Source: a virus. Taken from it: a DNA stretch of 64,000 nucleotides. The translations under genes were made by a program, and so were the position numbers. Of this stretch, positions 31,456 to 59,884 are shown one piece after another. The stretch spans positions 23,944 to 87,943 of IMG/VR virus record IMGVR_UViG_3300020185_002701. The stretch is one strand, 5' to 3'. Under the pieces are notes generated by a model. It had not been told where the DNA came from. It saw only the letters and a list, made by a program, of their open reading frames with translations, and did no database searches. How positions within the stretch are numbered: position 1 is the first letter of the stretch; the number at the start of each line of letters is the position of its first letter.

Positions 31456-31815
31456 ATGAGCGCAAAACTTTCAAAAGCATTAGAATTTGCTAATTATCGT
31501 GTTACTTTAAACAATCAAAAAGAAGCTCTGAGAGCTAAAGCACATTCTCTACTAAGTTACAGCATTAATGGCGGAACTTTTACCATAGACAGAACACTAA
31601 TATCGTTTTGTAGAAATCTCATTGACGAACAGTTAGTTGAAGCTATACTGCTTGACGATTATAACAATCCTATTAAAATAGAAATTGTTGAATTTTACGA
31701 AGAAATTTTAAGCAGATATAGCGAAACTACCAATGACTATTACGTAGAATACGAAAAAATAAAAAAGGCTAGAAGTGTAAACAAGGTAGTGGATATCAAT
31801 GAAGATAATGTCTAA
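31456..31815 (+). CDS. Unrecognised 119-aa protein
   Basis: A 119-residue, mostly helical, charged protein (Lys/Glu-rich, with LISFCRNLIDEQLVEAILL in the middle). It is the first gene after a TATAAATA late promoter and overlaps the following glycosyltransferase-like gene by 17 bases, so the two are probably co-translated. The family is not recognised. Because it lies between the fibre block and the glycan cluster it could belong to either. Confidence 0.6.
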   Translation: MSAKLSKALEFANYRVTLNNQKEALRAKAHSLLSYSINGGTFTIDRTLISFCRNLIDEQLVEAILLDDYNNPIKIEIVEFYEEILSRYSETTNDYYVEYEKIKKARSVNKVVDINEDNV

Positions 31816-32713
31816 GACTAACACAATTGATCGAGGTATTATAATGTTCGCTCATAATAATACTGAAATAGATTATTTTCGTTTAGCAGTGGTAAATGCA
31901 ACACTGATACAACGCTACTTAGGCTTAGAAAAACAAAATATTGCTGTGGTCACTGACTTACACTCTCTTGAACACGCCCAAAAACAATTGGGCAAAAGAT
32001 TTATTAAAAACGCAATCGGGCATATAATTATAAACGAAAAAGATGTTAATTTTAAACATTCCAATGTCCGCACATACAAAGATACTAGTTTACATTCTAA
32101 ACATTTAAGTTTTTATAACAAAAACAGAAGTGATGCATACGATTTAAGTCCGTTCCAAGAAACCATACTAATAGATGCTGACTATCTTGTTTTAAGCGAT
32201 TCTCTTAATCAGTGCTGGGGACATAATAACGAATTAATGATGAACTGGGAATATAAAGATGTATATAGTAGTAGAAAATATCCTTCGTTAACACGATTAC
32301 ATAACTTAGGAATTAGCATGTATTGGGCTACTGTGGTGTATTTCCGCAAAACAGATTACTGCGAAACATTTTTCAATCTAGTCAAACAAGTCAGAGATAA
32401 TAAAGACTACTATGGACAACTGTTTAGAATTAATAATAAACTGTATAGAAACGATTTTAGTTTTAGTGTAGCAGCACATATATTAGGCGGATTCCAAGAT
32501 AAAACATTGCCGCAGTTACCTTTTCAGTTGTTCAAAACATTTGATACAGATGATGTTTATGAGGTGAACAGTGATTTAAGTTTAGTTCTTTGTTTAGAGA
32601 AACCAGATTCGCCTGGAGATTTTATTGCCACTAAGTGGAAGGGAGTAGATGTGCACATAATGAACAAATGGGCGTTATCTAGGATATCAAACGGATTATT
32701 AGAATATGTCTAA
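31799..32713 (+). CDS. GT-A-like glycosyltransferase (304 aa)
   Basis: The N-terminus has a Rossmann-like strand with NN (IIMFAHNNTEIDYFRLAVVNA) and VVTD. The centre has FQETILIDADYLVLSD, where DAD fits the metal/nucleotide-sugar-binding DxD of GT-A glycosyltransferases. It is paralogous to the next gene, which has the same order of motifs (AQNN, YDETVILDTD). Two starts are possible: ATG 31799 (chosen, giving a 17-base overlap) and ATG 31808. The reaction is probably transfer of a sugar from a nucleotide sugar; donor and acceptor are unknown. Fold and role are inferred from motifs. Confidence 0.6.
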   Translation: MKIMSKTNTIDRGIIMFAHNNTEIDYFRLAVVNATLIQRYLGLEKQNIAVVTDLHSLEHAQKQLGKRFIKNAIGHIIINEKDVNFKHSNVRTYKDTSLHSKHLSFYNKNRSDAYDLSPFQETILIDADYLVLSDSLNQCWGHNNELMMNWEYKDVYSSRKYPSLTRLHNLGISMYWATVVYFRKTDYCETFFNLVKQVRDNKDYYGQLFRINNKLYRNDFSFSVAAHILGGFQDKTLPQLPFQLFKTFDTDDVYEVNSDLSLVLCLEKPDSPGDFIATKWKGVDVHIMNKWALSRISNGLLEYV

Positions 32714-33563
32714 AGGGTATATTGTGATTGCTCAAAATAACGCCACTGTTGATTACTTACAACAGGCGTATGCCCTTGCATTAAATTTAAAGTTAACTCA
32801 GAGCGAAGTTAACAAGTTAACTGTTTGTGTTGATAAGGCAACAAAACGATTAATAACAGATAAACACAGACAAGTATTTGATTGCATAGTAGATATTCCC
32901 TGGATCGATGATGCTGAAAACAGTGATTGGAAAATACAAAACAAGTGGAAATATTATTACATGACACCTTACGATGAAACTGTAATATTAGATACAGACA
33001 TGATATTTCCTGTAGATGTTAGTTTCTGGTGGGATGTACTCAGCGAACGAGACGTTTGGGCAAGTACTAGTGTGAGAAACTTTAAAAACGAAACTGTGAC
33101 TAATGATTATTATCGAAAAGTGTTTACTAACAACCAGCTTCCTAACGTGTATACTGCATTTATGTATTTTAAAAAATCCGAAGTTGCCGGGGAGTTGTTT
33201 GGATTAGCAGAGATAATATTCCAGCATTGGGAAAGATTTTTTTATCTTTATATACCTAATAATAAACCAGACAATGTTAGCGGCGATGTGGTTTTTGCAC
33301 TAGCAATGAAACTGTTGGGCGTGGAAAACGAATGCACTAAGCCTAAACTAACTAATTTGCCTACATTTGTTCACATGAAAAGCAAATTACAGAATTCACC
33401 ACAGTTAAACGATGAGTGGACTGCTAGTTTACCAACCTATTATCATAGCTACAGAGATTTTAAAATAGGCAATTTCCAGCAACAGTTACCCTTCCATTAT
33501 GTAAACAAAGAATGGATGACACCTGCAAAGATTGCACAAATGGAAAACGATTATGACAGTTAA
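32706..33563 (+). CDS. GT-A-like glycosyltransferase (285 aa), paralogue of preceding gene
   Basis: This shares with its upstream neighbour the AQNN/AHNN opening, the conserved PYDETVILDTDMIFPVD segment (DTD as DxD motif) and a tryptophan-rich segment after it. It starts within the end of the preceding gene (8-base overlap), so the pair is probably co-translated. The family seems widespread in marine T4-like phages, where it is usually only called glycosyltransferase-like; substrates are unknown. The next gene begins inside its 3' end. Confidence 0.6.
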   Translation: MSKGYIVIAQNNATVDYLQQAYALALNLKLTQSEVNKLTVCVDKATKRLITDKHRQVFDCIVDIPWIDDAENSDWKIQNKWKYYYMTPYDETVILDTDMIFPVDVSFWWDVLSERDVWASTSVRNFKNETVTNDYYRKVFTNNQLPNVYTAFMYFKKSEVAGELFGLAEIIFQHWERFFYLYIPNNKPDNVSGDVVFALAMKLLGVENECTKPKLTNLPTFVHMKSKLQNSPQLNDEWTASLPTYYHSYRDFKIGNFQQQLPFHYVNKEWMTPAKIAQMENDYDS

Positions 33564-34233
33564 TCAAGCTGCAATTGACCGTAAAAATAGATTTTTAGAA
33601 GAAAAAAAGTCTGTATCATCTGTGAAAGAGTTAGTTAAGCATAAAGTTGAACAACCTTTTACTTTGTGGTTCAATAGTGAAGGTGATATATTATCGTTTT
33701 CGCAAAATGAAATAGCACCGAGGAACGGATGGTACACATATGATTTTGAACCAGAACAGCTATCAGTGTTATACAACGGAACACATAATTATATAGTTGT
33801 AAAAGATCAATTAGTTGAAAACAAATATTCTATACAACGAAAAGTTTTAGAGGAACAGCTAATTTCTAAAGAGGAATATTTCTTACATGAAGTTCCTTTT
33901 GTTCGCGTATCACCTAGAGGGATAAGACTAGAATTAACAAAAAATCATTTAAAAATTGCTCTCGACACTAACATTAAACAATTATACGAAGGCATTAGTC
34001 CAGTTAAAGCAACTGCAAAATCGCAACGTACATTTGAATTTTATATAACTAAAACTGGCGATCCGCATATACTTTACGATCAAGGATCTGTGTACTTTAG
34101 TCAGTTATTAACTAGCGACGTAGTTAAGATTAAATTAAATAAACAACTGCCAAAAGAAGTAAGTATATATACTAAAAAACTTTTTGAAAGTAAATATCGT
34201 TACAGTGTTACAGACAAAAGGAAAACGAATTAA
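33553..34233 (+). CDS. Unrecognised protein (226 aa) in glycosyltransferase operon
   Basis: ATG 33553, inside the end of the upstream gene, is preferred over the upstream in-frame TTG 33532 and gives 226 residues. The first 40 residues are a charged helix (MTVNQAAIDRKNRFLEEKK). The rest looks beta-rich, with WFNSEGDIL, PFVRVSPRGIRLEL and FEFYITKTGDPHIL stretches. No catalytic motif is recognised. It lies between two glycosyltransferase-like genes and overlaps both (11 bases upstream, TAATG downstream), so a role in the same pathway or in a structural accessory is possible but unproven. Confidence 0.6.
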   Translation: MTVNQAAIDRKNRFLEEKKSVSSVKELVKHKVEQPFTLWFNSEGDILSFSQNEIAPRNGWYTYDFEPEQLSVLYNGTHNYIVVKDQLVENKYSIQRKVLEEQLISKEEYFLHEVPFVRVSPRGIRLELTKNHLKIALDTNIKQLYEGISPVKATAKSQRTFEFYITKTGDPHILYDQGSVYFSQLLTSDVVKIKLNKQLPKEVSIYTKKLFESKYRYSVTDKRKTN

Positions 34234-35237
34234 TGAAAGTAGAAGTAACAGAATTAGATATTGTGTATATTAGTTATGACGAACCTAACTGCGAAGAACA
34301 CTGGTCTGATCTCTTAAATAAAGTTCCATGGGCAAAACGTGTTCATGGTGTAAAAGGTTTTGATGCTGCACATAAACGTGCTGCACAAATAGCAGAAACA
34401 GACCGGTTCATCACAGTAGACGGCGACAATATAGTAATGCCAGACTTTTTTGATCAAACGCTAGATATACCAGACACTGATATGTATGGTAATGAAATAA
34501 GCGAAAGCATCTTTAGTTGGAACGGAAGAAATTTGCTAAACGGATTAGTCTACGGCAACGGCGGACTTAAATGTTGGCCTACAGAATACACTAAAACTAT
34601 TAGCACACATGAAGCAGCCACCGACGGCGAAGGTATGGAGTTTTGTTGGAAGTTAAACTATATTCAACTTAACGACACGTTCTCAGAAGTTCATCAAACT
34701 GCAAGCCCATTCCAGGCGTTCCGCGCAGGATTTAGAGAAGGCGTTAAGATGAGTTTAGATCAAGGCAAGCGAGTACAAGCTAACGAGTTTAAGGAAAAAA
34801 TCTGGTACGGCAACTATAATAGATTACAAGTTTGGTGCAATATTGGTGATGATGTGGAAAATGGGGTGTGGGCTATATATGGTGCAAGGCTGGGCTGCAA
34901 AATGACAGTGCTGTCAGATTGGGACACTAACAACATTGCAGATTACACTTGGTTTAAGGATTTCTTTTACAAGCAAGTCGCTCCTCAATTTAATGGCAAC
35001 AAGCAAAATCAGTGTCCTCATACCAAGCAGCAGTGGGATGATCATTTATTATATAAAGAGATAACAGCGTTAGGAAATGAAATAAACACTGAAGTTAACC
35101 AAATGTTGTTATTTGATCCAAATCCACTAGTGAGTAAGTTCTTTAAAACAACCTACACTGCTCCTAGGCGTTGGGGTGTTATGGTTAGGGAAAAACAGAT
35201 TCAAGAATTACTTGAGAAAGGGTTAATAGGACATTAA
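34233..35237 (+). CDS. Glycosyltransferase-like protein with VDGD motif (334 aa)
   Basis: The first 130 residues (DIVYISYDEPN, WAKRVHGVKGFDAAHKRAA, FITVDGDN, then GNGGLKCWP) have GT-A character with DGD as DxD motif. The same arrangement forms the complete last domain of the 1,132-aa repeat protein at 55834 (FDVALITYRNEN, HIKDVKGIFEAHKAAA, LWVVDGDAEI, YGGVKLF). Both also share a following segment SPFQAFRAGFREGVKMSL / SPLSTWRSAFREVVKLTL. This gene is therefore the single-domain relative of that repeat protein. It starts by TAATG overlap with the gene before and is followed by a 65-base gap with a late promoter. Glycosyltransferase function is inferred; substrates are unknown. Confidence 0.6.
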   Translation: MKVEVTELDIVYISYDEPNCEEHWSDLLNKVPWAKRVHGVKGFDAAHKRAAQIAETDRFITVDGDNIVMPDFFDQTLDIPDTDMYGNEISESIFSWNGRNLLNGLVYGNGGLKCWPTEYTKTISTHEAATDGEGMEFCWKLNYIQLNDTFSEVHQTASPFQAFRAGFREGVKMSLDQGKRVQANEFKEKIWYGNYNRLQVWCNIGDDVENGVWAIYGARLGCKMTVLSDWDTNNIADYTWFKDFFYKQVAPQFNGNKQNQCPHTKQQWDDHLLYKEITALGNEINTEVNQMLLFDPNPLVSKFFKTTYTAPRRWGVMVREKQIQELLEKGLIGH

Positions 35238-35267
35238 CCATATAAAATTAACAAATGTTTTTATTCA

Positions 35268-35275
35268 GATAAATA
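35268..35275 (+). promoter_or_regulatory. T4-type late promoter octamer GATAAATA
   Basis: GATAAATA in the gap before the nucleotide-sugar dehydrogenase. The predicted start near 35281 leaves a leader of about 22 bases including AAAGGA (35290-35295) before ATG 35303. Confidence 0.75.
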
Positions 35276-35302
35276 TTAACACAATACACAAAGGATACAC
35301 AG

Positions 35303-36643
35303 ATGGCCTCGATCGGATTTATTGGGGTAGGCAAGTTAGGACAAGCCTGCGCCGAGATGGTCGCTGAGATCCATGATGTTGTTGGTTATGATGTAGAACC
35401 CAGAGAGCCTGAAAATTTTACAATGGTTTCAGACTTGCGGGATGCTGTAATAGGACAAGATATTGTTTTTATTGCTGCACCTACACCACACGACCCACAG
35501 TATGATGGACGAGCACCCACCAGCCATTTACCCAACAAAGACTTTGACTATACTATAGTCAAGGATATCTTAAAACAGGTAAATGAAGTAGCAACACCTA
35601 AGCAATTAGTTGTACTAATTAGCACAGTATTACCTGGCACTGTTCGCAGAGAACTAATACCTCTATTAACAAACGCCCGTTTCATATATAACCCTTACTT
35701 GATTGCCATGGGCACAGTCAAGTGGGATATGGTTAATCCAGAAATGGTTATGATTGGCACTGGAGACGGTTCAGAAACTGGTGATGCAAAACAGTTAGTA
35801 GATTTTTACAAAACAATCATGCAAAACGATCCCAAGTATGTTGTAGGTACCTGGGATGAATGTGAATGCATCAAAGTGTTCTACAATACGTTTATTAGTG
35901 CTAAAGTTAGTTTGGTAAACATGATACAAGACGTTGCTGAAAAGCAGGGTAATATAAATGCAGAAGTTGTATGCGATGCTCTTGCTAATGCTGATAGGCG
36001 TATTATGGGTCCGGGTTACATGAAGCCTGGTATGGGCGATGGTGGTGCTTGTCACCCCAGAGATAATATTGCGTTACGCTGGATGGCTGAGGAGTTGGAT
36101 CTAGGTTATGATTTATTTGATTCAGTAATGCGTAGCAGAGAAGTACAAGCAGAGAACATGGCAAAGCGTTTGGTACAACTAAGTTTACCTGCTAATATTG
36201 CGCCTATGCATTATATTCCTAAGCTACCAATTGTTATTGTGGGTAAAGCTTATAAACCTCTTGTGCCTTATGAAGCAGGTAGCAGCAGTATGCTAGTTGG
36301 CCATTATATAGAAAAATTAGGCGGCGAACTTTATTATTTAGATGAAGAATGTGGAGAAACACCACCTGAAAACATTTTAAATAACCCAGCAGTTTATTTA
36401 ATGGCCCATAATCCTGAAGTAACTTATGGCGAACAATTAGATTTTGTAAAAAGTTGGTATGCAGGCAATCACGCCGTTACAAACTGTGATACTGCATTAA
36501 CAGTCGAAACTGCAAATGGTTCAGAATTGACTTTCAGTACAGGAAGTGTTATACTAGATCCTTGGAGAAAAGTTCCAAACAATATCCCTGGGGTCGAAGT
36601 CATACATTACGGGAATACAAGGGGAGAGAGATCATGGCAATAG
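35303..36643 (+). CDS. Nucleotide-sugar dehydrogenase (UDP-glucose/GDP-mannose dehydrogenase family)
   Basis: A 446-residue member of the family that oxidises the C6 hydroxyl of a UDP- or GDP-hexose twice with NAD to give a uronic acid. The NAD-binding GFIGVGKLG (Gly8, Gly10, Gly13) is at the N-terminus, AAPTPHD and STVLPGTVRREL follow, and the catalytic cysteine is Cys250 in GDGGACHPRDN. The C-terminal UDP-binding domain has VGKAYKPLVPYEAGSS, so the length is near normal. The final part of about 60 residues (YAGNHAVTNCDTALTVE, then a run to DPWRK) is Thr/Ser-rich. First gene after a late promoter; its 3' end overlaps the methyltransferase start by 10 bases. Donor (UDP-Glc, UDP-HexNAc or GDP-Man) cannot be told. 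Confidence 0.85.
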   Translation: MASIGFIGVGKLGQACAEMVAEIHDVVGYDVEPREPENFTMVSDLRDAVIGQDIVFIAAPTPHDPQYDGRAPTSHLPNKDFDYTIVKDILKQVNEVATPKQLVVLISTVLPGTVRRELIPLLTNARFIYNPYLIAMGTVKWDMVNPEMVMIGTGDGSETGDAKQLVDFYKTIMQNDPKYVVGTWDECECIKVFYNTFISAKVSLVNMIQDVAEKQGNINAEVVCDALANADRRIMGPGYMKPGMGDGGACHPRDNIALRWMAEELDLGYDLFDSVMRSREVQAENMAKRLVQLSLPANIAPMHYIPKLPIVIVGKAYKPLVPYEAGSSSMLVGHYIEKLGGELYYLDEECGETPPENILNNPAVYLMAHNPEVTYGEQLDFVKSWYAGNHAVTNCDTALTVETANGSELTFSTGSVILDPWRKVPNNIPGVEVIHYGNTRGERSWQ

Positions 36644-37251
36644 TAACAAAATATAAAATTAATACAGAGATACCCGGCTGGACTACTGAAAAAAAATTAA
36701 ATATGTTGGCGGAAAAAGCCGCAGCAGTACCTGAAAATGGCACAATTGTCGAGCTAGGAACTTTTTGCGGAAGAAGTGCATACAGTCTTGGTAGTAATAA
36801 ACTAGATTCTGTGAAACTGGTATGTGTAGATATGTTCCCTGACAACTTTATACAGATTCTGGCTAAAGACTTCCCTGGCATTGAGCATGGCTTCGGCAAT
36901 TTAGATACTCCATATACATGGCAAGCATGTTCTTACGCCCTCAAAGATGTTGTTAATCTAGAATATCTTAGAACAGTATTGCCCCTTCCTAGTTTTGTAC
37001 AAATAGATTTGGAGGTTGATTTATTGTTTATTGACACAGTACACACTGCTGAGGGAGCCCAAAGTGATATAGATCAATGGTTTCCTCTATTAACAGATAA
37101 TGCAGTTGTTGTTTTTGATGATTATTGTGATGTGTTTCCTGAATATTCAGAAATAATAGACAAGCACCTTCTTACTCTAGATGTACAAAACAGAGAAGTA
37201 TACGAACATGCATTATGGGTACAGCTAGGAAAAAAAGAGGAAAACAAATAA
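36634..37251 (+). CDS. Class I SAM-dependent methyltransferase (205 aa)
   Basis: ATG 36634 has a GGGGAGAG site four bases upstream, so it is preferred to the longer frame from 36562. The SAM-binding motif I is IVELGTFCGRSAYSLG, followed by VKLVCVDMFPDN. Later motifs DLLFIDTVHTAEGAQSDID and VVVFDDYCDV match the Methyltransf_24 type, many of which methylate sugars or small molecules in surface-glycan clusters. It overlaps the dehydrogenase stop and is followed after one base by the first radical SAM gene. The acceptor is unknown; O-methylation of a sugar is the likely inference from context. Confidence 0.75.
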   Translation: MAIVTKYKINTEIPGWTTEKKLNMLAEKAAAVPENGTIVELGTFCGRSAYSLGSNKLDSVKLVCVDMFPDNFIQILAKDFPGIEHGFGNLDTPYTWQACSYALKDVVNLEYLRTVLPLPSFVQIDLEVDLLFIDTVHTAEGAQSDIDQWFPLLTDNAVVVFDDYCDVFPEYSEIIDKHLLTLDVQNREVYEHALWVQLGKKEENK

Positions 37252-37252
37252 C

Positions 37253-38803
37253 ATGGCATATAAAAAAGGTATAACAAAATTTCACGGGGCTGGCTCTCAA
37301 CAAACATTTGATGCTTTAAGTGAAGTGAGCGATTCCTTTTGTTTAGCAAAATGGCTGCAGGTTACATTGCATTTACAAAATGGGCACAACCATAGTTGCC
37401 ACCATCCCGTTACACATCGGGCAGACGAAAATGAAATTGCAAATAATCCTAATGCGCTACACAATACTCTGTACAAAAAAGCCAAGCAAGCACAAATGTT
37501 AACAGGAGAACGGCCTACAGAATGCCAATACTGCTGGAACATAGAAGACATAGGGCAAGACAGTGATGACACGAGTTTTGCAAGTGACAGGATTCACAAG
37601 TCAGGCGATATTACTTGGGCCGGTACAAACCAAATACAGCCGTTGTTAGACAAAATAAAACGGGGCGAAAAAATAAATCCGCGTTATGTTGAAATTTCAT
37701 TCAGTAATGTGTGTAATTTTAAATGCAGTTATTGTTCTCCTGTACACAGCAGTCTATGGACTAGCGAAATCAAAAACAAAGGTCCATATGAGTTGCTGTC
37801 TAATCCAGGACATAATAATCTAGAATGGTTAGAGAAAGAAGATAAACTACCTATACACCACAAAGATTATAATCCATATGTAGAAGCATTTTGGGAATGG
37901 TGGCCTGATCTTGTTCAAGATCTAGTGTCGTTTAGAATTACTGGCGGCGAGCCATTACTTGAAGAAAATACGTTTAAAGCGATCAAGATGTTACAAGAAT
38001 CTGAAACTGGATCGCTAAAAGAGATGAGTATTAACAGCAATGCGTGTGTACCAGACGAAGTTATAGATCGGTATATTCTAGAAATGAATAAATTATTAGA
38101 TTCTGGAAAAGTTGAAATTTCTCGGTTCTTTACAAGCTGCGATACCCATGGCGAGCAAGCTGAATATATCAGGCACGGATTTGATTATAAGAGGTGGCTT
38201 AAAAATGTAGACAAAATTCTAACAGAAATACCTAAATCTAGAGTGACAATTATGTGCACTGCTAATCTCATGAGCTTACCAAGATTTCATTTATTTCTCC
38301 AAGACGTACATGCGTTAAAGAAAAAACACTGGAATAATCCACTTAAAGGGCGTGACCAAGGATTAACATTAGATATACCTATATTGCGTCATCCCGCTCA
38401 TCAAAGTGTAGCTATACTACCTAGCACATATGCAGACATGTTAACTCCTAGTTTAGCCTATATGACCAGCCACTGGGTGGATGGACAGAACCGTGATGCC
38501 TGGACAAAAAGAACTACTAACAAATTCTCACCTGATCTTTTACAAGATATACAAGAAGATGATAAAATGTTTACTGATTTAGAAATGCAGAGGTTTCAAA
38601 GACTGATAAAATCAGTTGAGGAAGATGTAAATGTTAACGAAGGTGTTAATTCTAAAACTTCAATGATTGATTTTTATTTGTTTGTAAACGAACATGATAG
38701 AAGACGTGGTACAGATTTCAAAAAAACTTTTCCAGAACTTATGGATTTTTATAGGTTATGTGAAGAAGAACATAATAAAAGAATTATGGTGAGGAATATA
38801 TAA
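37253..38803 (+). CDS. Twitch-domain radical SAM protein, copy 1 (516 aa)
   Basis: The radical SAM cluster motif CNFKCSYC supplies Cys154, Cys158 and Cys161. Upstream lies a Cys-rich N-terminal segment (SFCLAKWLQVTLHLQNG, HSCHHP, then ECQYCWN), which fits an auxiliary cluster or N-terminal twitch domain. TGGEPLL (SAM-binding GGE) follows, and a conserved C-terminal DFYLFVNEHDRRRGTDF also occurs in the next gene. The protein is about 45% larger than simple radical SAM enzymes. Family knowledge supports [4Fe-4S]-dependent cleavage of SAM to a 5'-deoxyadenosyl radical; substrate is unknown. Start ATG follows AAAGAGGA. The stop overlaps the start of copy 2 (TAATG). Confidence 0.8.
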   Translation: MAYKKGITKFHGAGSQQTFDALSEVSDSFCLAKWLQVTLHLQNGHNHSCHHPVTHRADENEIANNPNALHNTLYKKAKQAQMLTGERPTECQYCWNIEDIGQDSDDTSFASDRIHKSGDITWAGTNQIQPLLDKIKRGEKINPRYVEISFSNVCNFKCSYCSPVHSSLWTSEIKNKGPYELLSNPGHNNLEWLEKEDKLPIHHKDYNPYVEAFWEWWPDLVQDLVSFRITGGEPLLEENTFKAIKMLQESETGSLKEMSINSNACVPDEVIDRYILEMNKLLDSGKVEISRFFTSCDTHGEQAEYIRHGFDYKRWLKNVDKILTEIPKSRVTIMCTANLMSLPRFHLFLQDVHALKKKHWNNPLKGRDQGLTLDIPILRHPAHQSVAILPSTYADMLTPSLAYMTSHWVDGQNRDAWTKRTTNKFSPDLLQDIQEDDKMFTDLEMQRFQRLIKSVEEDVNVNEGVNSKTSMIDFYLFVNEHDRRRGTDFKKTFPELMDFYRLCEEEHNKRIMVRNI

Positions 38804-48699: not shown

Positions 48700-48707
48700 G
48701 ATAAATA
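48700..48707 (+). promoter_or_regulatory. T4-type late promoter octamer GATAAATA
   Basis: GATAAATA in the 80-base gap between two SDR genes. The predicted start near 48713 gives a leader of about 19 bases before ATG 48732; the leader has only a weak purine stretch (AGAGA). Confidence 0.72.
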
Positions 48708-51075: not shown

Positions 51076-51076
51076 G

Positions 51077-53955: not shown

Positions 53956-54317
53956 AATACATAATTGACATTGACGGAACTATATGTTATACCGATAAAA
54001 GTGAATATACTAAATCTAAGCCTATAAGTAGTAATATAGACCAAGTTAACAATTTGTATGACCAAGGACATGAGATTGTTTACTGGACTGCACGTGGAGG
54101 CAATAGCGGTATCGATCATTCCGAACTAACATTAAAGCAATTGAGTGATTGGGGATGTAAATATCACTCAGTGATGTTTAACAAACCTACTTACGATGTG
54201 TGGGTTGACGACAAAGCTTCTTGGATTTTTTCTGAAACACCAAAGGCGCAGTTTAGTGACGAATTAAAAGAAAGATTAAAAAAATTAAGAGAACGGGATC
54301 CGTTTATATACAGATGA
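53952..54317 (+). CDS. Small HAD-family hydrolase (121 aa)
   Basis: ATG 53952 (ATGA overlap with the cupin stop) is preferred over the longer frame from 53934. IIDIDGTICY gives the nucleophile pair Asp6 and Asp8 of motif I; IVYWTARGG is motif II with Thr; the C-terminal KPTYDVWVDDKA is motif III/IV with the Lys and Asp pair. The core lacks a large cap. Such proteins occur in capsule clusters and could remove the 7-phosphate of a heptose bisphosphate as GmhB does between kinase and nucleotidyltransferase; sequence alone does not prove this. It ends in an ATGA overlap with the carbamoyltransferase. Confidence 0.78.
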   Translation: MKYIIDIDGTICYTDKSEYTKSKPISSNIDQVNNLYDQGHEIVYWTARGGNSGIDHSELTLKQLSDWGCKYHSVMFNKPTYDVWVDDKASWIFSETPKAQFSDELKERLKKLRERDPFIYR

Positions 54318-55810
54318 ATAGAATATTAGGTATTAGCAGTATGTTCCATGATGCAGCAGTATGCGTTATAGAAGATGGAGAAATATTGTTTGCGAGTCAT
54401 GCTGAACGTTATAGTAAAGAAAAGAATGATCCTTTTCTTAACGAACAACTAATGACTGAAGCTCTCAGTTATGGTCTACCTGATGTCATAGTGCTGCATG
54501 AAAAAACTTGGGCAAAGCGTTTGAGGAATATTGCTGGCAGACAATGGAGCGGATTGCGTGAACCTAGTGCAGAATCTTTTATTAAAACAAGCATGCCGTT
54601 TTTAAATGATGTACCAATTAAAAGCTATTGGCATCACGAAACACACGCAGCAGCTGGTGTACTAACAAGCAATTTAGATAGTGCTGCTGTTATGGTTATT
54701 GACGCTATTGGAGAATTTGATACTGCTAGTATATGGCATTGGAAAGATAATAAATTAACAAAGAAACACAGTATAAAATTCCCTCACAGCTTAGGGTTGT
54801 TTTATAGCGCAGTAACACATTTTGTCGGATTAAAACCCATGGAGGATGAATACATTCTAATGGGAATGGCAGCATATGGGAATGATGTTGTTGCTGCTGA
54901 TATCGAAAGTGCAATGACAGATGTTTACTTTAATAATAAACAAGGCCCTATTAAATTTAGAGAAAATTTACAACGTGGGTTACCACATAAAAGCCATTTT
55001 AATCAATATGATAATATGGACATAGCATTAGCTGCACAAAACATTACAGAAAAACACATACTGGACTATGCTAACATAGCAAAAAATATAACTGGAGAAA
55101 ACAATCTAGTATTTATGGGAGGTGTTGCTCTTAACTGTGTTGCTAACAGTCGACTGTGTTCTTTGTTTGAAAATGTACACATAATGCCTAATCCTGGTGA
55201 TGCAGGTAGTGCATTAGGTGCCGCAGCATTAGAATATTTTAATCAAACTGGAAATAAAGTAAACTGGAAAAGCCCTTACTTAGGAACAAACATACCAGGA
55301 AAGTATCCTGTGAATAAAGCAATGGGTGCACTAACATCAAATAAAATTTTTGGTATAGCAAACGGCCGGGCGGAGTTTGGACCAAGAGCGTTAGGTAATC
55401 GCAGTTTGATGGCAGATCCCAGAGGAGAACAAATTAAACAAAGAGTTAACGTAATTAAGAAGCGCCAACAATTTCGCCCTTTTGCTCCTGTTGTTTTAGA
55501 ACAATACGCTAATAAATATTTTGATATGCCAGTAGCATCAAGTCCTTATATGCAATTTGTTGCTAAATGTAAATTCCCTAATATGTATCCTGCTATTGTT
55601 CATGCAGACGGTTCAAGCCGTGTGCAGACAGTTAACAAGTCCCAACATCCTGGATTGTACCAACTGCTAATGGAATTTTACTCTTCAACAGGATGCCCTA
55701 TGTTGCTGAACACTAGTTTAAATATTAAAGGACAGCCAATAATTAACGACGAGGATGACGCTAAAGCATGGACATTACAATATGGTAGGCCTGTATTTAC
55801 ACATGATTAA
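54314..55810 (+). CDS. Carbamoyltransferase, NodU/CmcH family (498 aa)
   Basis: The N-terminal HSP70/actin-like half contains LGISSMFHDAAVCVIEDGEI, HHETHAAAGV (conserved HH and H), VMVIDAIGEFDTASIW and MGMAAYGN. The middle has MGGVALNCVANS and NPGDAGSALGAA. The C-terminal domain has EFGPRALGNRSLMADPR, RQQFRPFAPVV and LLNTSLNIKGQPI. All hallmark motifs of NodU/CmcH enzymes, which transfer a carbamoyl group from carbamoyl phosphate to a hydroxyl, are present, but the protein is shorter than usual (about 550-600). In this cluster O-carbamoylation of a sugar is expected. It is the last gene before a late promoter. Confidence 0.87.
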   Translation: MNRILGISSMFHDAAVCVIEDGEILFASHAERYSKEKNDPFLNEQLMTEALSYGLPDVIVLHEKTWAKRLRNIAGRQWSGLREPSAESFIKTSMPFLNDVPIKSYWHHETHAAAGVLTSNLDSAAVMVIDAIGEFDTASIWHWKDNKLTKKHSIKFPHSLGLFYSAVTHFVGLKPMEDEYILMGMAAYGNDVVAADIESAMTDVYFNNKQGPIKFRENLQRGLPHKSHFNQYDNMDIALAAQNITEKHILDYANIAKNITGENNLVFMGGVALNCVANSRLCSLFENVHIMPNPGDAGSALGAAALEYFNQTGNKVNWKSPYLGTNIPGKYPVNKAMGALTSNKIFGIANGRAEFGPRALGNRSLMADPRGEQIKQRVNVIKKRQQFRPFAPVVLEQYANKYFDMPVASSPYMQFVAKCKFPNMYPAIVHADGSSRVQTVNKSQHPGLYQLLMEFYSSTGCPMLLNTSLNIKGQPIINDEDDAKAWTLQYGRPVFTHD

Positions 55811-55820: not shown

Positions 55821-55828
55821 AATAAATA
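55821..55828 (+). promoter_or_regulatory. Putative T4-type late promoter octamer AATAAATA
   Basis: AATAAATA lies in the 23-base gap before the 1,132-aa repeat protein. With T4 spacing the predicted transcription start would fall on the A of the ATG at 55834, giving a leaderless transcript, and there is no Shine-Dalgarno in front of that ATG. One mismatch to the other octamers makes the call weaker. Confidence 0.5.
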
Positions 55829-55833: not shown

Positions 55834-58800
55834 ATGTTTGATATATATTATACTGGTACAAATTCCTTACTGCATAGCACATATCCCTTTGCAAAAAAAT
55901 ACACGGAAGATGCTAATCCATTGACAAAAATGTATTGGCTAGTAGACTCTGACATAGAAATTGTTGATCATAGTATTTTTGAATACCGTCCTCCTGCACA
56001 TCAGGAACAATATGAACATATCTGGAAATGGAATAGTAAAAATTACGGCGGTGTACGGCTGCTACCTAAAAAATCTCCTAAAGGTGTTGTAGAGATAAAC
56101 AAAGTTGTATGTAAAAAAACTATTAGGATACTTTTTGATTGTGATGATCCAGACGAATATTTTGAGAATAATACAGCAGAGTACGTATGGTGTGTAGATT
56201 CTAGATATAAGTTGCCAGAAGGTGGTTTAGAATGGGCACCTGATAACACTGAACTTCCTTATATACATAATTTCCATTTAAAAAATCAACTTCAAGACTA
56301 TTATCCTGAAGATGAAGGTGGGGTGACGCTGTATCCTAGAGACTGGAAAAAGCTGACAAAAAAATATCACGGGATTATGCATTTGGATAGCAGATTGTAT
56401 CCTGTAATGTATGTTAGTGATCCTTCAGATTACTCGCAACGTAATATATACAATCATGATTATGTGTGGTTAATAGACAAAAACTATAAGATAAATGAAG
56501 AAACCCTTCAATGGACTCCTAGTGTGGGAGAGCCTGAACAGTACATACATAATTTTCGAATGCCACAACAACTAAAAGAAAAATATCCACGAGCAATGGG
56601 AGGCATTTACTTAGTACCTAAAAACTGGATGGATGCTCAGATAAAAATACACAAAGGTTGCCATGTTGAAAATGAGGAATATGATACATTTTTCACTAAT
56701 AAACCGTTTAATGCAAGTACATATGAATTCTATGCAAACCGTAGCCTAACCGATTGGTTTTGGATTGTTGACTTAGAATACAATTTTAACGGTAAACTAA
56801 GCTTTGTTCCTGACAAACACGATGGTAAAGTAACCCACGTTTTTCACTTTCCTGGGCAATTGCCTGCCCGCTATCCAGACAACGTAGCTGACCTTCCTCC
56901 TGACGATACTCGTAATGGCGGAATAAGATTAGTACACAAACAATTTGATATAACTAAAAACAAAGTGTGCAGAGATATATTACCTATAATTTATGACGTA
57001 TTTTTTGTACATCACACAGAATTAAATAATTACACCAAGTATGAAAAACTATCTAATACAAGTATGTTTTATCTGGTAGACGAGGAGTTAGTGTTCGACA
57101 TTGACTCACTGAATTATGTTCCTGAACCTTGGGCGTATCAATACGTACACACATGGCATTTACCTCCTCAGCTGGAATATAGATATGATAACGAAGGAGT
57201 TGGTCCCATAAAACTTGTACCAAATACTTTTGTTAATGATGGTCACTATAAGTTAATTGAAGGAGATTTGTTTATTGGTAACTATGAAAATCTATCTAAA
57301 ATTACATATCCGGTAATCAGGTCAAAAACCGTGTCAGATTTATTTGATATAGATGAGGATATACCTGGGCTATGTTGGCTTGTTGACGATAATTATATTA
57401 TAGATAATGATAAGTTAAGCAAGATATGGAATCCTTCTAGCGATACTATTAACTATATACACAACTTTAAACTTGCTAATCAGTTAACTGAACTGTATCC
57501 AGATGAGATGGGGGGTATATACTGGCTTCCCGATAACTGGAGAGAATTAAAAAATACAAAAAATACATTAGTAATACACGGATCGCAAGCTTGGCAAGAA
57601 ACTAATATTGATGCCGAATTCCCAATATTTTATAACGAAGAAGAAGCTAATAATAAGTGTAAAGATGAAAGATTCTACTGGTTAATTGACCCTGATGTAA
57701 CAGTAGTAGACGACTTTGATTTTAATTTCCAACCAGAATTCTGGGATCATGATAAAACACATATTTGGCAAAAATGTAATCCAGTGACTAATTCAGTTTT
57801 TGATTACGGGGGTATACAATTAGTAAGTCGACATGCCGACAAAAAGAAACGACCAAAACATATACTAGAACCTGGCTGTTACCAGAAACAGATTCCTATT
57901 CACACTTTAACAAATGAAACTTCACTAGCAAAGCAAATGTTTGACTTTAGTGTCCAAGCAAAAAATAACGGATTTAAGATGTTTTGGGTATTAGATAGTA
58001 GTGTTGTATTACATGACGAATGGGACTTTAGTTATTACCCATCGCAATGGGAGCAAAACTTTGTGCATGTTTTTCAAAATACTAATGGTGAGTATCGAGA
58101 TGTGCGGTTAGTTCCGACTAATTTTATAGAAGATAATGCTGATTTAACACTAAGTGATTTTACATACAATAATCTAGAAAACTTAAAATATATAGATATT
58201 ATTGCTACTACGATACGAGAATGGCCAGTGATAAAGTTAAACGTAATTAATGTAGAGATTTTCTTGCAAGAGTTGCAGTCATACAGAAACCAAGGAATTT
58301 CTTATGTATGGACTGTTTCTTCCTATGTTGATGTAAATGAACAGTTAATAAAAGATAGTTTCCAGCCAGCAGGAGTAGATAACGCAAAAATTCATATATT
58401 CCAAGATTTTTCTCCTCATACAGGTCGTTTACACAGTTATGGTAGGGTTATGCTGTGGCCAACAGATGGAAATTACAGCAATCTTACTAGCAAACAAATC
58501 GAAACAGCAAGTATAAAAGATAAAAAATACGTTAAAGAAGTTGGATCTACATATAAAAAGTTTGATGTTGCCTTAATTACTTACCGTAACGAGAACGCTG
58601 ATGAAAGATTTGCAAAGCTAAAAGAAAAAGCACCACACGCAATACATATAAAAGATGTTAAAGGTATTTTTGAAGCACATAAAGCAGCAGCAGGCCAGTC
58701 CACTACGGAGATGTTGTGGGTAGTAGACGGCGATGCTGAGATAGTAGATGACTTTAATTTTGATTACATACCAGATATATATGATACTAACACTGTACAC

Positions 58801-59232
58801 GTCTATACCACTATTAACCCAATCACAGGTGACAAATACGGCTATGGCGGAGTAAAACTATTTAATAGAAATCAAATTATGAAAGTTGATAATTGGGGAT
58901 TAGATTTTACCACAGGCCTCAGCAAAGATTTTAAATTAATGGACGAAGTAAGTAATATCACTGCTTTTAATACCAGTCCATTAAGCACATGGCGTAGTGC
59001 ATTTAGAGAAGTAGTAAAATTAACATTAAAGGGCGACAATGAAAGCTTCCAGCGTTTGTTTATATGGTCTGAACCTGAGATAGAAGATGCAGATTATATA
59101 CAATATGCAAAAGACGGGGCAGAGCAGGGTTATAATTTTGTAATAGAAAATTCAAACAAACCTGAAAAACTACAGATAATAAACGATTTTGATGAATTAG
59201 AAAAGATGTTTAATGCCAAATATGAAACTTAA
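55834..59232 (+). CDS. 1,132-aa protein of ten glycosyltransferase-like repeats
   Basis: Ten units start near residues 33, 117, 210, 308, 411, 513, 614, 716, 824 and 960. Each has an aromatic-W/Y-(L/V/I)-(V/I)-D strand, a W.P or F.P turn, an H-(N/V/T)-(F/W) strand and a (Y/G)G(G)(I/V).L.P ending. The last unit is complete (ALITYRNEN, HIKDVKGIFEAHKAAA, LWVVDGDAEI) and matches the glycosyltransferase-like protein at 34233. The DxD position reads DSD, DSR, DKN, DLE, DEE, DDN, DPD, DSS, SSY and DGD, so a metal-binding pair survives only in units 1, 7 and 10. It may be a processive transferase with binding repeats, or a lectin-like scaffold; neither is proven. No ribosome binding site precedes the start. 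Confidence 0.65.
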   Translation: MFDIYYTGTNSLLHSTYPFAKKYTEDANPLTKMYWLVDSDIEIVDHSIFEYRPPAHQEQYEHIWKWNSKNYGGVRLLPKKSPKGVVEINKVVCKKTIRILFDCDDPDEYFENNTAEYVWCVDSRYKLPEGGLEWAPDNTELPYIHNFHLKNQLQDYYPEDEGGVTLYPRDWKKLTKKYHGIMHLDSRLYPVMYVSDPSDYSQRNIYNHDYVWLIDKNYKINEETLQWTPSVGEPEQYIHNFRMPQQLKEKYPRAMGGIYLVPKNWMDAQIKIHKGCHVENEEYDTFFTNKPFNASTYEFYANRSLTDWFWIVDLEYNFNGKLSFVPDKHDGKVTHVFHFPGQLPARYPDNVADLPPDDTRNGGIRLVHKQFDITKNKVCRDILPIIYDVFFVHHTELNNYTKYEKLSNTSMFYLVDEELVFDIDSLNYVPEPWAYQYVHTWHLPPQLEYRYDNEGVGPIKLVPNTFVNDGHYKLIEGDLFIGNYENLSKITYPVIRSKTVSDLFDIDEDIPGLCWLVDDNYIIDNDKLSKIWNPSSDTINYIHNFKLANQLTELYPDEMGGIYWLPDNWRELKNTKNTLVIHGSQAWQETNIDAEFPIFYNEEEANNKCKDERFYWLIDPDVTVVDDFDFNFQPEFWDHDKTHIWQKCNPVTNSVFDYGGIQLVSRHADKKKRPKHILEPGCYQKQIPIHTLTNETSLAKQMFDFSVQAKNNGFKMFWVLDSSVVLHDEWDFSYYPSQWEQNFVHVFQNTNGEYRDVRLVPTNFIEDNADLTLSDFTYNNLENLKYIDIIATTIREWPVIKLNVINVEIFLQELQSYRNQGISYVWTVSSYVDVNEQLIKDSFQPAGVDNAKIHIFQDFSPHTGRLHSYGRVMLWPTDGNYSNLTSKQIETASIKDKKYVKEVGSTYKKFDVALITYRNENADERFAKLKEKAPHAIHIKDVKGIFEAHKAAAGQSTTEMLWVVDGDAEIVDDFNFDYIPDIYDTNTVHVYTTINPITGDKYGYGGVKLFNRNQIMKVDNWGLDFTTGLSKDFKLMDEVSNITAFNTSPLSTWRSAFREVVKLTLKGDNESFQRLFIWSEPEIEDADYIQYAKDGAEQGYNFVIENSNKPEKLQIINDFDELEKMFNAKYET

Positions 59233-59884
59233 TACCTGGTCCGAAGTAGAAAAATTTACTGATAAAAATCTAAGAATATCACCCACCTATCTTTCAGAAG
59301 TTGGAACAGGAAAGTATCCTTGTGAAGCTTTTAGTTTGGGCCAGCTTGCAAGTAAAGCGTGGCTAATACGTTGTATTAATCAATATGTTAATCCTTTACA
59401 AGCTAATGTAACCGTTGCTATTTTAGGCAGCTGGATAGGTGTATTAGTAGAATTTTTACATCAAAGTTTTCTTATTGATCGAATCTATGGCATAGATCTA
59501 GACGAATTCAGTATAAAATTAAGCGAGGAACTTAATAAAAAACATGTCAACAATTCATGGAAATATAAAGGTGTAGTAGCAGATGTTTTGACACTGTCTA
59601 CAAACAATATGGAATTTCTTACTGATAACGAATTAATAAATGTTAAACCTGAATGGATTATAAACGCCAGTTGCGAACATATGGGCTCTCAATGGTTTAA
59701 TACTGCGGATTCAGATCAGTTAATTATTATGCAAACAAATAACTATCATAGATGGCATGAGCACACAAACACTGTGGACAGTATAACAGACATGCAAGAT
59801 AAATATCCATTATCTAATACCTTATATGCAGGAGAATTAGATATGCCATTATACACTAGGTACATGCAAATAGGATATAAGTAA
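59213..59884 (+). CDS. Putative class I SAM methyltransferase-like protein (223 aa)
   Basis: The segment VTVAILGSWIGVLVEFLHQ resembles a class I methyltransferase motif I, although the glycine pattern GSWIG is less regular than usual, and IDRIYGIDLDEFSIKLSEEL resembles motif II with an acidic residue for the SAM ribose. INASCEHM follows where motif IV is expected. The fold assignment is tentative and the substrate is unknown. It overlaps the repeat protein by 20 bases and the next small gene by TAATG. A second ATG at 59222 is possible. Confidence 0.6.
   Translation: MPNMKLNTWSEVEKFTDKNLRISPTYLSEVGTGKYPCEAFSLGQLASKAWLIRCINQYVNPLQANVTVAILGSWIGVLVEFLHQSFLIDRIYGIDLDEFSIKLSEELNKKHVNNSWKYKGVVADVLTLSTNNMEFLTDNELINVKPEWIINASCEHMGSQWFNTADSDQLIIMQTNNYHRWHEHTNTVDSITDMQDKYPLSNTLYAGELDMPLYTRYMQIGYK

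Follow-up and report, generated by a model that had tools for sequence, protein, structure and literature searches.

Directly behind the fibre genes of a T4-like phage lies a long run of sugar-type genes, and the question it raises is what this run makes, when it does so and for which acceptor. The window analysed here is a stretch of 64,000 nucleotides from IMG/VR virus record IMGVR_UViG_3300020185_002701. Within it, positions 31456-59884 are filled by 29 ORFs, every one on the + strand and mostly overlapping, with six gaps longer than 8 b, the one that opens the block included. The preliminary description had spoken of about 30 overlapping sugar-type genes after the fibres, and the ORFs agree with this. 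Ahead of the block stand two giant proteins and smaller genes of fibre type. That the block serves glycan synthesis is highly probable. That it is, as a whole, a late, phage-borne locus for a GDP-heptose-derived, perhaps branched and carbamoylated glycan of the virion is an evenly balanced proposition.

The block and its phage

The following genes, named below by their first positions, lie ahead of the block.

40..13389, + strand: giant fibre-like protein of 4449 aa (ORF list) that heads the fibre block; no Pfam domain above cut-off; relatives match parts of it before the block
13427..14095, + strand: fibre-block gene of 222 aa, a conserved marker found in 12 of the 33 contigs searched
14108..16162, + strand: fibre-like protein with S74 chaperone domain (Pfam PF13884)
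16176..28511, + strand: giant protein of 4111 aa; subtilase N-terminal, cadherin-like, Ig-like and FG-GAP repeats
28582..30420, + strand: fibre-like protein of 612 aa, related to 14108 (37% over 191 aa)
30420..31391, + strand: last fibre-block gene, 323 aa, conserved directly before the glycan block

Both giants (40..13389 and 16176..28511) are probably fibres. The structural genome is T4-like: the same record holds gp25 (Pfam PF04965, 2.3e-11) and a gene that we take, by recall and without a Pfam match, to be gp6-like, and Gp23 is present on G001, a near-identical 111-kb contig. G001 is a second record, of other length, in which the same block, at 98-100% protein identity, follows the same fibre genes. 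A bacterial O-antigen island misjoined to a phage contig, which the similarity of the gene set to cellular sugar loci might suggest, is barely credible in view of the block, fibre genes and Gp23 of G001 and of the fibre-then-glycan order, which is kept on the same strand in nine other viral contigs. In three of these (G003, G006, G007) the fibre genes lead into 31456, 31799, 32706, 33550 and 34233, and in six (G011, G012, G013, G016, G028, G033) into 31456 or 31799 onwards. All eight other TPP contigs with the marker 13427 (G016 and G017 hold the same locus) carry it upstream of the TPP gene, at a distance of 12.4-16.3 kb and on the same strand; this spacing is 32 kb in the window. The 29-gene block of this T4-like phage is real, its position behind the fibre genes is conserved and its enzyme families are as tabulated below.

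Conservation of the cluster beside the fibre genes in relatives holds for the order and fails for part of the content. In the four relatives whose dehydrogenase-carbamoyltransferase interval was read whole (G002, G003, G007, G008), the TPP/RmlC/SDR core is absent and six or seven other ORFs stand in its place; the block can therefore do without the core. Its second half, with the carbamoyltransferase, 55834 and 59213, lies in G006 and G007 on the other strand from the fibre genes and the first half.

With its T4-like structural genome and, in the structural region, a variable island that combines fibres with many sugar genes, this phage has the makings of a host recognition cluster. Such clusters of fibre and glycan genes, situated between VrlC and gp14, average 44.6 kb in pelagimyophages and 34.2 kb in cyanophages (PMC7029224, in the part cited), and what they share with the block, as there described, is a T4-like genome, a variable island of fibre, sugar-enzyme, glycosyltransferase and radical SAM genes, and a similar size. 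In Synechococcus phage S-SM2 about 26 genes of this kind stand in a row. The Pelagibacter phage Mosig EXVC030M has, next to its fibre and baseplate genes, a cluster of similar size, about 25 genes, several of them hypothetical; the annotations in common are MoaA-like, carbamoyltransferase, methyltransferase and epimerase, oxygenases and nitroreductases are its own, and only a carbamoyltransferase (30%) and an SDR (27%) in the Mosig stretch match genes of the window's cluster. Sugar islands of this kind are thus already known in phages, and the view that the size and chemical range are unusual was not borne out by these comparisons.

Late-promoter-like octamers

Octamers resembling T4-type late promoters were found at these positions.

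13413..13420, + strand: GATAAATA, precedes fibre-block gene 13427; also before four of eight homologues
28545..28552, + strand: GATAAATA, precedes 28582
31417..31424, + strand: TATAAATA, precedes the glycan block (31456)
35268..35275, + strand: GATAAATA, precedes 35303; before three of three homologues
48700..48707, + strand: GATAAATA, precedes 48732
55821..55828, + strand: AATAAATA, precedes 55834; before none of five homologues

Below 60 kb there are nine ATAAATA sites on the + strand, six of which fall within the 429 b of + strand gaps, where 0.06 would be expected if the sites were uniform (binomial, 1e-11); all six sites on the - strand are inside genes. Such promoters had been claimed before most segments, which is correct for four of the six block gaps and incorrect for those before 40334 and 52501. 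An octamer lies at most 110 b upstream of five of seven homologues of 31456 and of all three homologues of the dehydrogenase gene 35303; the opposite strand of those stretches has none. The corresponding counts are three of 11 rows for 34233, one of five for 59213 and none of five for 54314. These motifs support the proposed late co-expression of the block with the fibres in this lineage, and late expression of the block is likely. Across 48 TPP loci the gap enrichment of the octamer is equal on both strands (13/217 plus, 11/170 minus), and lateness is therefore not shown for this wider set.

The core and the sugar it may produce

The middle of the block contains the genes listed here; all except 50650 make up the core.

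44388..44936, + strand: RmlC-like 3,5-epimerase (PF00908, 2.3e-34)
45607..46257, + strand: TPP-binding (E1-alpha-like) half of a split TPP enzyme (PF00676, E1_dh, 1.6e-15; PHROG 34187, 8.5e-52)
47686..48651, + strand: SDR, NAD-dependent epimerase/dehydratase (PF01370, 6e-36)
48732..49724, + strand: SDR of the GDP-fucose synthase / GDP-mannose epimerase group, candidate C4 reductase (PF01370, 1.2e-42)
49721..50653, + strand: SDR, Cj1427-like nucleotide-sugar C4 dehydrogenase
50650..51075, + strand: conserved, 141 aa, no family assigned; in 21 of 45 loci together with the core; 68 of 141 positions at least 95% identical in 27 sequences
51053..51607, + strand: pyrimidine-binding (E1-beta-like) half of the split TPP enzyme (PHROG 34187, 7.3e-19)

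This core of TPP halves, RmlC-like epimerase and three SDRs recurs in many uncultured phages, a finding that is new here. When 45 dereplicated viral loci with full flanks (ending 8 kb away) were scored at an identity of at least 40%, all six genes were present in 20 and five in 16, a total of 36. Taken singly, 44388 occurs in 44, 47686 and 49721 in 41 each, 48732 in 32 and 51053 in 30. Among named phages the alpha half was found in 8 of 50,697 records, always below 60% identity, and a pattern search for close relatives only, over 84,980 prokaryotic species represented by a single genome apiece, returned six loci.

That the TPP enzyme is split, as in the preliminary description, is upheld. Its first half exceeds the Pfam cut-off and its second does not (Transket_pyr, 3.8e-4, 20.6 bits, cut-off 27), and both match a single 405-aa PHROG, 34187, in columns 2-198 and 236-401. 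The usual TPP motif is GDG...N, whereas 45607 has GDM...EDN, at least 95% identical across 60 aligned sequences; in 51053 an EE motif is at least 95% identical in 38 sequences. With PP and Pyr domains, a TPP motif and a catalytic Glu, the pair is predicted to be of the E1/transketolase type. Both halves stop after the second domain, the third (transketolase C) domain being absent. The best solved-structure match of 45607 reaches 32 bits.

The same pair might instead be a small transketolase that provides sedoheptulose 7-phosphate to make ordinary heptose, and no sugar would then be branched. The PP-then-Pyr order is that of transketolase as well as of E1, and S-SM2 and the Prochlorococcus phage P-TIM68 have counterparts of 45607 (42-43%) and of 51053 (30-35%) close to homologues of 52802 and 52501 and to genes annotated phosphoheptose isomerase. 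However, the C domain is missing, the alpha half is matched best in NCBIfam by PDH E1 alpha, and in the 45 loci, scored as above, 52501 accompanies the core twice and the kinase 52802 once, while the C4-dehydrogenase-like SDR is found with the TPP pair in 41. We consider a transketolase role unlikely. The two phages share with the block the TPP enzyme, the HldE-like kinase, the nucleotidyltransferase and the cupin and HAD genes, but their TPP enzyme is one gene, an RmlC-like match is lacking, their SDRs are only 22-34% alike and, in the stretches seen, their clusters adjoin nrd/tRNA or photosystem-type genes and not fibres.

The SDR 49721 matches the solved sequences 6vo6/6vo8 at 298 bits, the next solved sequence reaching 73. 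We take 6VO6 to be Campylobacter Cj1427, a GDP-heptose C4-dehydrogenase; 49721 would be a dehydrogenase of this kind. The best PDB matches of 44388 are GDP-heptose epimerases such as MlghB and DdahB (top eight 117-123 bits, next 86), and in a by-eye alignment five of six MlghB residues (H67, K74, N121, Y132, Y134, D173; listed in PMC7949155) are identical, Y132 being F. RmlC also has residues of this type, so that the match does not fix the nucleotide. The third enzyme, 48732, matches GDP-mannose epimerases and GDP-fucose synthases equally, including 7anh, which is MlghC (PMC7949155), and has no specific match (NF047922, 140 bits, below the cut-off of 500). A C4-dehydrogenase-like SDR, a 3,5-epimerase and an Fcl-type SDR are shared with the GDP-heptose modification pathway of Campylobacter jejuni (Cj1427, Cj1430, Cj1428; MlghB/MlghC; PMC10680097, PMC7949155). 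A third SDR and the split TPP enzyme are additions of the phage, and the window lacks HddA and HddC. In Campylobacter the C4-dehydrogenase converts alpha-ketoglutarate to L-2-hydroxyglutarate (PMC10680097, in the part cited). A Methylacidiphilales locus, L117, contains the TPP pair, RmlC, a Cj1427-like SDR (46%), an L-2-hydroxyglutarate oxidase (519 bits, cut-off 299) and genes resembling HddA and HddC (models ranked best and second-best, neither above cut-off), and in a SAR11 single-cell genome the TPP pair sits among PseB, PseC-like and NeuB genes.

We infer that the core produces one special nucleotide sugar. In the proposed pathway, 49721 would oxidise GDP-heptose (or GDP-hexose) at C4, 44388 would epimerise the 4-keto sugar, 45607 and 51053 together would add a two-carbon branch to it, and 48732 or 47686 would carry out a reduction. 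From these likenesses, a sugar of the GDP-heptose type has about an even chance of being correct, and the two-carbon branch is less likely than not. The conserved TPP motifs and the C4-dehydrogenase-like SDR make a branched, carbamoylated sugar plausible.

Transferases, decoration and the acceptor

The remaining genes discussed comprise probable transferases and then other enzymes and conserved proteins.

31799..32713, + strand: GT-A-like transferase, DxD = DAD by eye; weak PHROG 1903 match (0.0037); paralogue of 32706
32706..33563, + strand: GT-A-like transferase, DxD = DTD by eye; PHROG 1903 (unknown function), 1.9e-6
34233..35237, + strand: GT-A-like transferase, 334 aa, DGD by eye; 71-74% identity in four relatives
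40334..41812, + strand: GT-B family glycosyltransferase without model, paralogue of 42925 (35%)
42925..44391, + strand: GT-B glycosyltransferase, modelled (AF2 pLDDT 83, pTM 0.84)
46242..47696, + strand: third GT-B family member, by paralogy
55834..59232, + strand: 1132-aa protein in which a GT-A-like unit is repeated ten times; its C-terminal region is homologous to 34233
31456..31815, + strand: first block gene, 119 aa, no family assigned; 54-67% in G003, G006, G007, G008, 40-44% in G011, G013, G016
33550..34233, + strand: 227 aa, no family assigned, positionally conserved; 21-25% in relatives
35303..36643, + strand: nucleotide-sugar 6-dehydrogenase, UDPG/MGDP family (PF00984, 4e-18; PF03721, 8.8e-13)
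36634..37251, + strand: class I methyltransferase (PF13578, 1.7e-14)
37253..38803, + strand: twitch-domain radical SAM protein (NF033640, 292 bits, cut-off 170)
38803..40320, + strand: twitch-domain radical SAM protein, paralogue (43%) of 37253 (NF033640, 306 bits, cut-off 170)
41809..42921, + strand: divergent radical SAM protein (PF04055, 27.8 bits, cut-off 29.5; NF033640, 62 bits, cut-off 170)
44933..45631, + strand: SGNH-hydrolase-like
51588..52448, + strand: SGNH-hydrolase-like
52501..52893, + strand: cytidylyltransferase-like nucleotidyltransferase (PF01467, 1.1e-14; 50% to S-SM2, 51% to P-TIM68)
52802..53611, + strand: HldE-like sugar kinase, PfkB (PF00294, 1.6e-18; TIGR02198, 122.8 bits, cut-off 345)
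53596..53955, + strand: cupin (PF07883, Cupin_2, 3.6e-9)
53934..54317, + strand: HAD-type phosphatase-like (PHROG 1238, 1.5e-26)
54314..55810, + strand: O-carbamoyltransferase of the NodU/TobZ kind (PF16861, 1.7e-52; PF02543, 1e-42)
59213..59884, + strand: last block gene, methyltransferase-like by eye, no family match; 52-56% in five loci

Most of the families named beforehand are sound. The dehydrogenase, RmlC, three SDRs, PfkB kinase, CTP_transf-like nucleotidyltransferase, Cupin_2 and both Carbam_trans domains, N and C, as in NodU/TobZ enzymes, are above Pfam cut-offs, and the HAD phosphatase is recognised by its PHROG though its Pfam match is below cut-off. Two of the three claimed radical SAM proteins, 37253 and 38803, also exceed the Pfam cut-off; the third, 41809, is below both cut-offs. 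The SGNH label of 44933 and 51588 comes from a GCSFT motif seen by eye, and neither has a Pfam or PHROGs match. GHMP kinase and NTP_transferase gave no Pfam match at E 0.01 among the 29 proteins. As to a supply of GDP-heptose, the HldE-like kinase, a nucleotidyltransferase nearest to cytidylyltransferases and the lack of HddA/HddC in the window speak against it.

The three proteins 40334, 42925 and 46242, which have no Pfam or PHROGs match, appear from the model and paralogy to be one GT-B family, new here, as are the ten GT-A-like repeats of 55834. Neither these nor the TPP/SDR core is described in the part of PMC7029224 cited, and its main text mentions neither transketolase nor carbamoyltransferase. 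Among the fold matches of 42925, T4 beta-glucosyltransferase ranks first (1c3j, VIA, Z 11.8, rmsd 5.3 over 288). Phage glycosyltransferases often act on DNA, and 36634 matches a PHROG named DNA methyltransferase (7.3e-14), so that the block might glycosylate or hypermodify phage bases. But an alpha-1,3-fucosyltransferase (2nzw, VIA, Z 11.2, rmsd 4.7 over 279) is tied with the T4 enzyme, so that the fold does not single out GT10 fucosyltransferases either; 36634 is a general Methyltransf_24 in Pfam; and the Pfam and PHROGs searches of the block proteins gave no other base-modification family. DNA modification would presumably work during replication, yet the block genes follow the fibres with late octamers. 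This role is very improbable.

The chain would be built by the GT-B proteins 40334, 42925 and 46242 and the GT-A-like 31799, 32706, 34233 and perhaps 55834, and decorated by the carbamoyl-, methyl- and radical SAM enzymes. The acceptor would be a soluble virion protein, foremost the fibres produced at the same time. In a hydrophobicity scan, at a strict threshold and without a positive control, no 19-residue stretch with a mean Kyte-Doolittle value of at least 1.9 occurred in the 29 proteins; export by a phage-coded flippase or polymerase therefore seems unlikely, which makes a soluble virion protein the likeliest acceptor. The Gtr system of seroconverting phages consists of the membrane flippase GtrA and the membrane transferase GtrB, and proteins of these types were not found in the 29 at this threshold. 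We lean slightly towards virion or fibre as the acceptor.

Alternatively, the sugar may be passed to host lipid-linked intermediates and remodel the infected cell's envelope, either O-chain or capsule, which would keep competing phages from adsorbing or save progeny from loss on debris. The authors of PMC7029224, in the part cited, favour a change of the host O-chain for related pelagimyophage genes; the core resembles Campylobacter capsule enzymes, and the cellular TPP pairs sit in surface-sugar-like loci. On the other hand, no protein of the flippase, polymerase or GtrA/B type is suggested by the scan, the late octamers are common to block and fibre genes, and the exclusion of rivals would probably be more useful early. 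Envelope remodelling is a real though less probable possibility.

As a whole, these results recast what was a list of "auxiliary" genes for sugars as a pathway open to testing, a short enzyme set with predicted substrates, whose core enzymes are conserved across many viral contigs and rare in named phages. If the fibre is the acceptor, phages would have swappable surface sugars of their own; with the host envelope as acceptor, these enzymes would show how rival phages are excluded. It is a speculative and rather improbable extension that many uncultured T4-like phages place on their own fibres a core-made, GDP-heptose-derived sugar, with a two-carbon branch added by a split E1-type TPP enzyme, carbamoylated and otherwise decorated, from cassettes that are exchanged at one constant place after the fibre genes. 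If true, this would be a sugar not yet described in viruses, with a swapping of cassettes much like that of bacterial O-antigens.

The gene block and its phage background

The window covers positions 23944-87943 of a virus record of 87,943 bases. Between 31456 and 59884 there are 29 genes, every one on the + strand and most overlapping their neighbours by a few bases. Upstream of this block lie the genes for two giants, of 4449 and 4111 aa, and four smaller fibre-type genes, one of which carries an S74 chaperone domain. Genes are named by their start coordinates in the window, and those needed below are the following.

13427: marker gene of the fibre block
16176-28511: 4111-aa giant protein
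31456-59884, + strand: the block of 29 genes
34233, + strand: GT-A-like transferase
40334, 42925 and 46242, + strand: three paralogues, 30-35% identical
44388, + strand: RmlC-like epimerase
45607 and 51053, + strand: alpha and beta halves of a TPP enzyme
47686, 48732 and 49721, + strand: three SDRs
50650-51075, + strand: 141-aa protein without a clear family
54314, + strand: carbamoyltransferase
55834, + strand: 1132-aa repeat protein
61831-63988, - strand: DUF2201 metallopeptidase/VWA-like gene and gene 63338

The families of sugar enzymes that the preliminary description had listed are indeed present in the block. Three genes (HAD, second TPP half, third radical SAM) fall short of the Pfam cut-offs, and the SGNH genes are assigned by motif alone. 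At E 0.01, Pfam gave no match for 12 of the 29 proteins (31456, 31799, 32706, 33550, 34233, 40334, 42925, 44933, 46242, 51588, 55834 and 59213).

The phage is T4-like. The record's leftmost 24 kb contain gp25, a 1378-aa gene that we take to be gp6-like, and a weak match to a baseplate OB domain, and a second record of a different length (G001, 111 kb) has the same block (98-100% protein identity), the same fibres and Gp23. Because of these genes and of G001, the T4-like assignment is well founded, and a misassembly in which the block was wrongly joined to a phage contig is unlikely and given low weight. Gp23 was found in 20 of the 33 contigs searched (19 over the cut-off). The portal model PF07230 matched neither the record nor the controls and is therefore uninformative.

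Several neighbouring features were recorded. At the N terminus of the 4111-aa giant is a subtilase domain (PF00082, 5e-30), followed by cadherin-like, Ig-like and FG-GAP repeats; locus L051 has a subtilase ORF of its own close to the TPP module, within a cluster seen in four loci. The DUF2201 gene and 63338 are both kept near the block in L024 (45%), and by eye the DUF2201 gene is also kept near it in L007 and L013.

A conserved core and its probable sugar

A search of IMG/VR for relatives of the alpha half of the TPP enzyme gave 257 stretches, of which the best 80 loci were used; these are 62-73% identical, the window's twin excepted. Without the twin there are 79, which group at 95% into 54 distinct loci, 45 of them with full flanks. 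Counting a gene as present at ≥40% identity over ≥60% of its length, the 45 loci (from the best 80 of 257) have 44388 in 44, 47686 and 49721 in 41 each, 48732 in 32, 51053 in 30 and 50650 in 21. All six core genes are kept in 20 of these loci, five in 16, four in 6 and three in 3. A looser count at E ≤ 1e-5, giving six of six in 27/45, was set aside because of possible cross-matches among SDRs. The catalytic motifs, GDM...EDN in 60 alpha halves and EE in 38 beta halves, are kept at ≥95%. In the same best 80 of 257 loci, the GT-B and twitch radical SAM genes that accompany the core have median identities of 31-40%. The steps that make the sugar are thus constant, and it is the transferases that vary.

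The core is exchangeable. In four relatives (G002, G003, G007 and G008), the interval between the dehydrogenase and the carbamoyltransferase, read whole, contains no TPP, RmlC or SDR core and holds six or seven other ORFs instead, most of them no more than 21-34% similar by blastp to the window's radical SAM or GT-B genes. The frame is retained: dehydrogenase, then, after the interval, carbamoyltransferase, repeat protein and 59213.

Beyond these loci, the TPP gene was found in 8 of 50,697 named-phage records, each at <60% identity; the carriers include S-SM2, P-TIM68, an uncultured 735-kb phage and an Acinetobacter phage (28%). With one genome per prokaryote species, at least six TPP loci were found, a lower bound on cellular occurrence since pattern-based scans recover close relatives only. 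Two of the six cellular matches (L113 and L114; 16.8 and 3.1 kb, MAG-derived) have a TPP gene at 64-66% identity and may in fact be viral, having ended up in a bacterial bin. The 141-aa product of 50650 is unusually rigid, with 68 of 141 positions ≥95% identical in 27 phage sequences; it presumably resembles DUF4254, and a homologue (47%) is present in the cellular locus L115.

As to which sugar is made, the best solved match of 49721 is 6vo6/6vo8 at 298 bits, the next scoring 73, and we take 6VO6 to be Campylobacter Cj1427. According to PMC10680097, Cj1427 carries out the C4 oxidation of GDP-heptose with alpha-ketoglutarate as electron acceptor, which yields L-2-hydroxyglutarate. For 44388, eight PDB sequences score 117-123 bits (next 86). 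They include 7ANG/7AN4 (MlghB) and 7ANI/7ANJ (DdahB), as identified in PMC7949155, and the others are GDP-heptose epimerases by their depositors' names; five of the six residues mutated in that paper are identical in 44388. SDR 48732 belongs to the GDP-fucose synthase/GDP-mannose epimerase group, with no specific match.

Two cellular neighbourhoods of the TPP pair were read as well. In L117 (Methylacidiphilales) the pair occurs with a Cj1427-like SDR, an RmlC protein and an L-2-hydroxyglutarate oxidase (well over the cut-off), the last being what a reaction of the Cj1427 type would need; for its kinase and nucleotidyltransferase, HddA and HddC are the best or second-best models, both under the cut-off. 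The order at L117:1389-9695 is Cj1427-like SDR, directly followed by the oxidase, then HddC-like, Nudix, HddA-like, B12 radical SAM, TPP pair and RmlC. L117 is a possible cellular pathway to a branched heptose. L118:241-9109 is from a SAR11 single-cell genome, and its TPP pair (alpha 56%) stands among PseB (over the cut-off), PseC-like (under it) and NeuB genes, with a long masked stretch after.

Given the matches of 49721 and 44388 and these cellular neighbourhoods, the core substrate is most likely a GDP-linked 4-keto sugar. The presence of a TPP enzyme beside such a C4 ketone suggests that a two-carbon branch may be added, a step that we infer. The pair might instead be a small transketolase rather than a branch-forming enzyme; in favour of this, the TPP gene of S-SM2 and P-TIM68 lies near a kinase, a nucleotidyltransferase and genes annotated as phosphoheptose isomerase.

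Putative transferases

The paralogues 40334, 42925 and 46242 have no match in Pfam or PHROGs. An AlphaFold2 model of 42925, built with 25 further sequences, reached pLDDT 83 and pTM 0.84. Foldseek gave weak matches (five below E 0.001; TM 0.27-0.37 by query length), but VIA-align had glycosyltransferases at the top of its list, with a tie between T4 beta-glucosyltransferase 1c3j (Z 11.8, rmsd 5.3, 288 aligned) and alpha-1,3-fucosyltransferase 2nzw (Z 11.2, rmsd 4.7, 279 aligned). Both are GT-B folds. The three paralogues are read as a glycosyltransferase family that no Pfam or PHROGs model covers.

An HMM seeded with the last unit of 55834 and built from four relatives detects ten copies in this protein, with i-E values of 1.4e-7 to 1.1e-20; it matches nothing in reversed proteins, in 34233 or in other window genes. 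The last copy sits in a C-terminal region homologous to 34233 (31% over 172 aa), and a DxD-like motif is kept, by eye, in three of the ten. From this homology, the ten matches and the motif, the repeats are probably GT-A-like; the structure model is poor (pLDDT 57, pTM 0.30). A homologue (34-36%) is encoded in seven other viral loci, about four of them distinct, as L008-L010 gave identical matches and L007 and L013 are near twins. Searching named phages by tblastn found no record with 55834.

Position, timing and acceptor

The order of fibre genes followed by glycan genes is found in nine contigs besides the window. In G003, G006 and G007 the fibre genes precede 31456, 31799, 32706, 33550, 34233 (71-74% identical), after which come twitch radical SAM genes; the glycan genes of G008 keep this order on a contig that stops before the fibre genes. 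The more distant G011, G012, G013, G016, G028 and G033 have the marker 13427 and fibre-like genes, then 31456 or 31799 onwards. The marker is present in 12 of the 33 contigs, and in all eight further TPP contigs that have it (G016 and G017 being the same locus) the TPP gene follows on the same strand after 12.4-16.3 kb; the distance in the window is 32 kb. The carbamoyltransferase, repeat protein and 59213 of G006 and G007 are on the opposite strand, which counts against one tight unit.

Six of the nine + strand ATAAATA sites in the window fall within 429 b of + gaps, and all six - strand sites lie inside genes. With gene starts placed approximately, coding-strand copies of the octamer precede homologues of 31456 (5/7), 35303 (3/3), 13427 (4/8) and 14108 (6/9), but seldom or never those of 34233 (3/11 rows), 59213 (1/5), 54314 (0/5) and 55834 (0/5); on the opposite strand the octamer is absent from all these stretches. 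The late expression proposed by the preliminary description is thus probable, and the case is good, for this lineage only. Across 48 TPP loci at large, the gaps of either strand are equally enriched in the octamer; with no strand preference there, it was dropped as evidence of lateness for the wider set. The exact octamer TATAAATA occurs twice in the window (both strands) against 10.6 expected from dinucleotide shuffles. One copy is a promoter-like site preceding the glycan block, and the octamer may be avoided elsewhere.

The size of the locus had been thought unusual, a view that fails: PMC7029224 describes fibre-plus-sugar islands in T4-like marine phages with a mean of 44.6 kb. No description of the TPP/SDR core was found in the open-licence literature. 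Pelagibacter phage Mosig carries a modification cluster of its own between fibre and baseplate genes (L005:6560-23660), with oxygenases, nitroreductases, MoaA-like genes and a carbamoyltransferase. Among cultured relatives, HTVC008M also has a carbamoyltransferase.

A scan at a strict threshold found no membrane-type hydrophobic stretch in any of the 29 proteins, and so no sign of a flippase, polymerase or Gtr transferase encoded by the phage. The glycan might nevertheless be destined for the host envelope, an acceptor we consider distinctly less probable than the virion; the authors of PMC7029224 favour a change of the host O-chain by pelagimyophage sugar genes. A role of the block in DNA modification is given low weight. 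Virion glycans are known in mycobacteriophages (PMC12619734). Because no stretch of that membrane type was found, and because of the place behind the fibres and the shared octamers, we somewhat favour the virion as acceptor, with the sugar carried on its soluble proteins.
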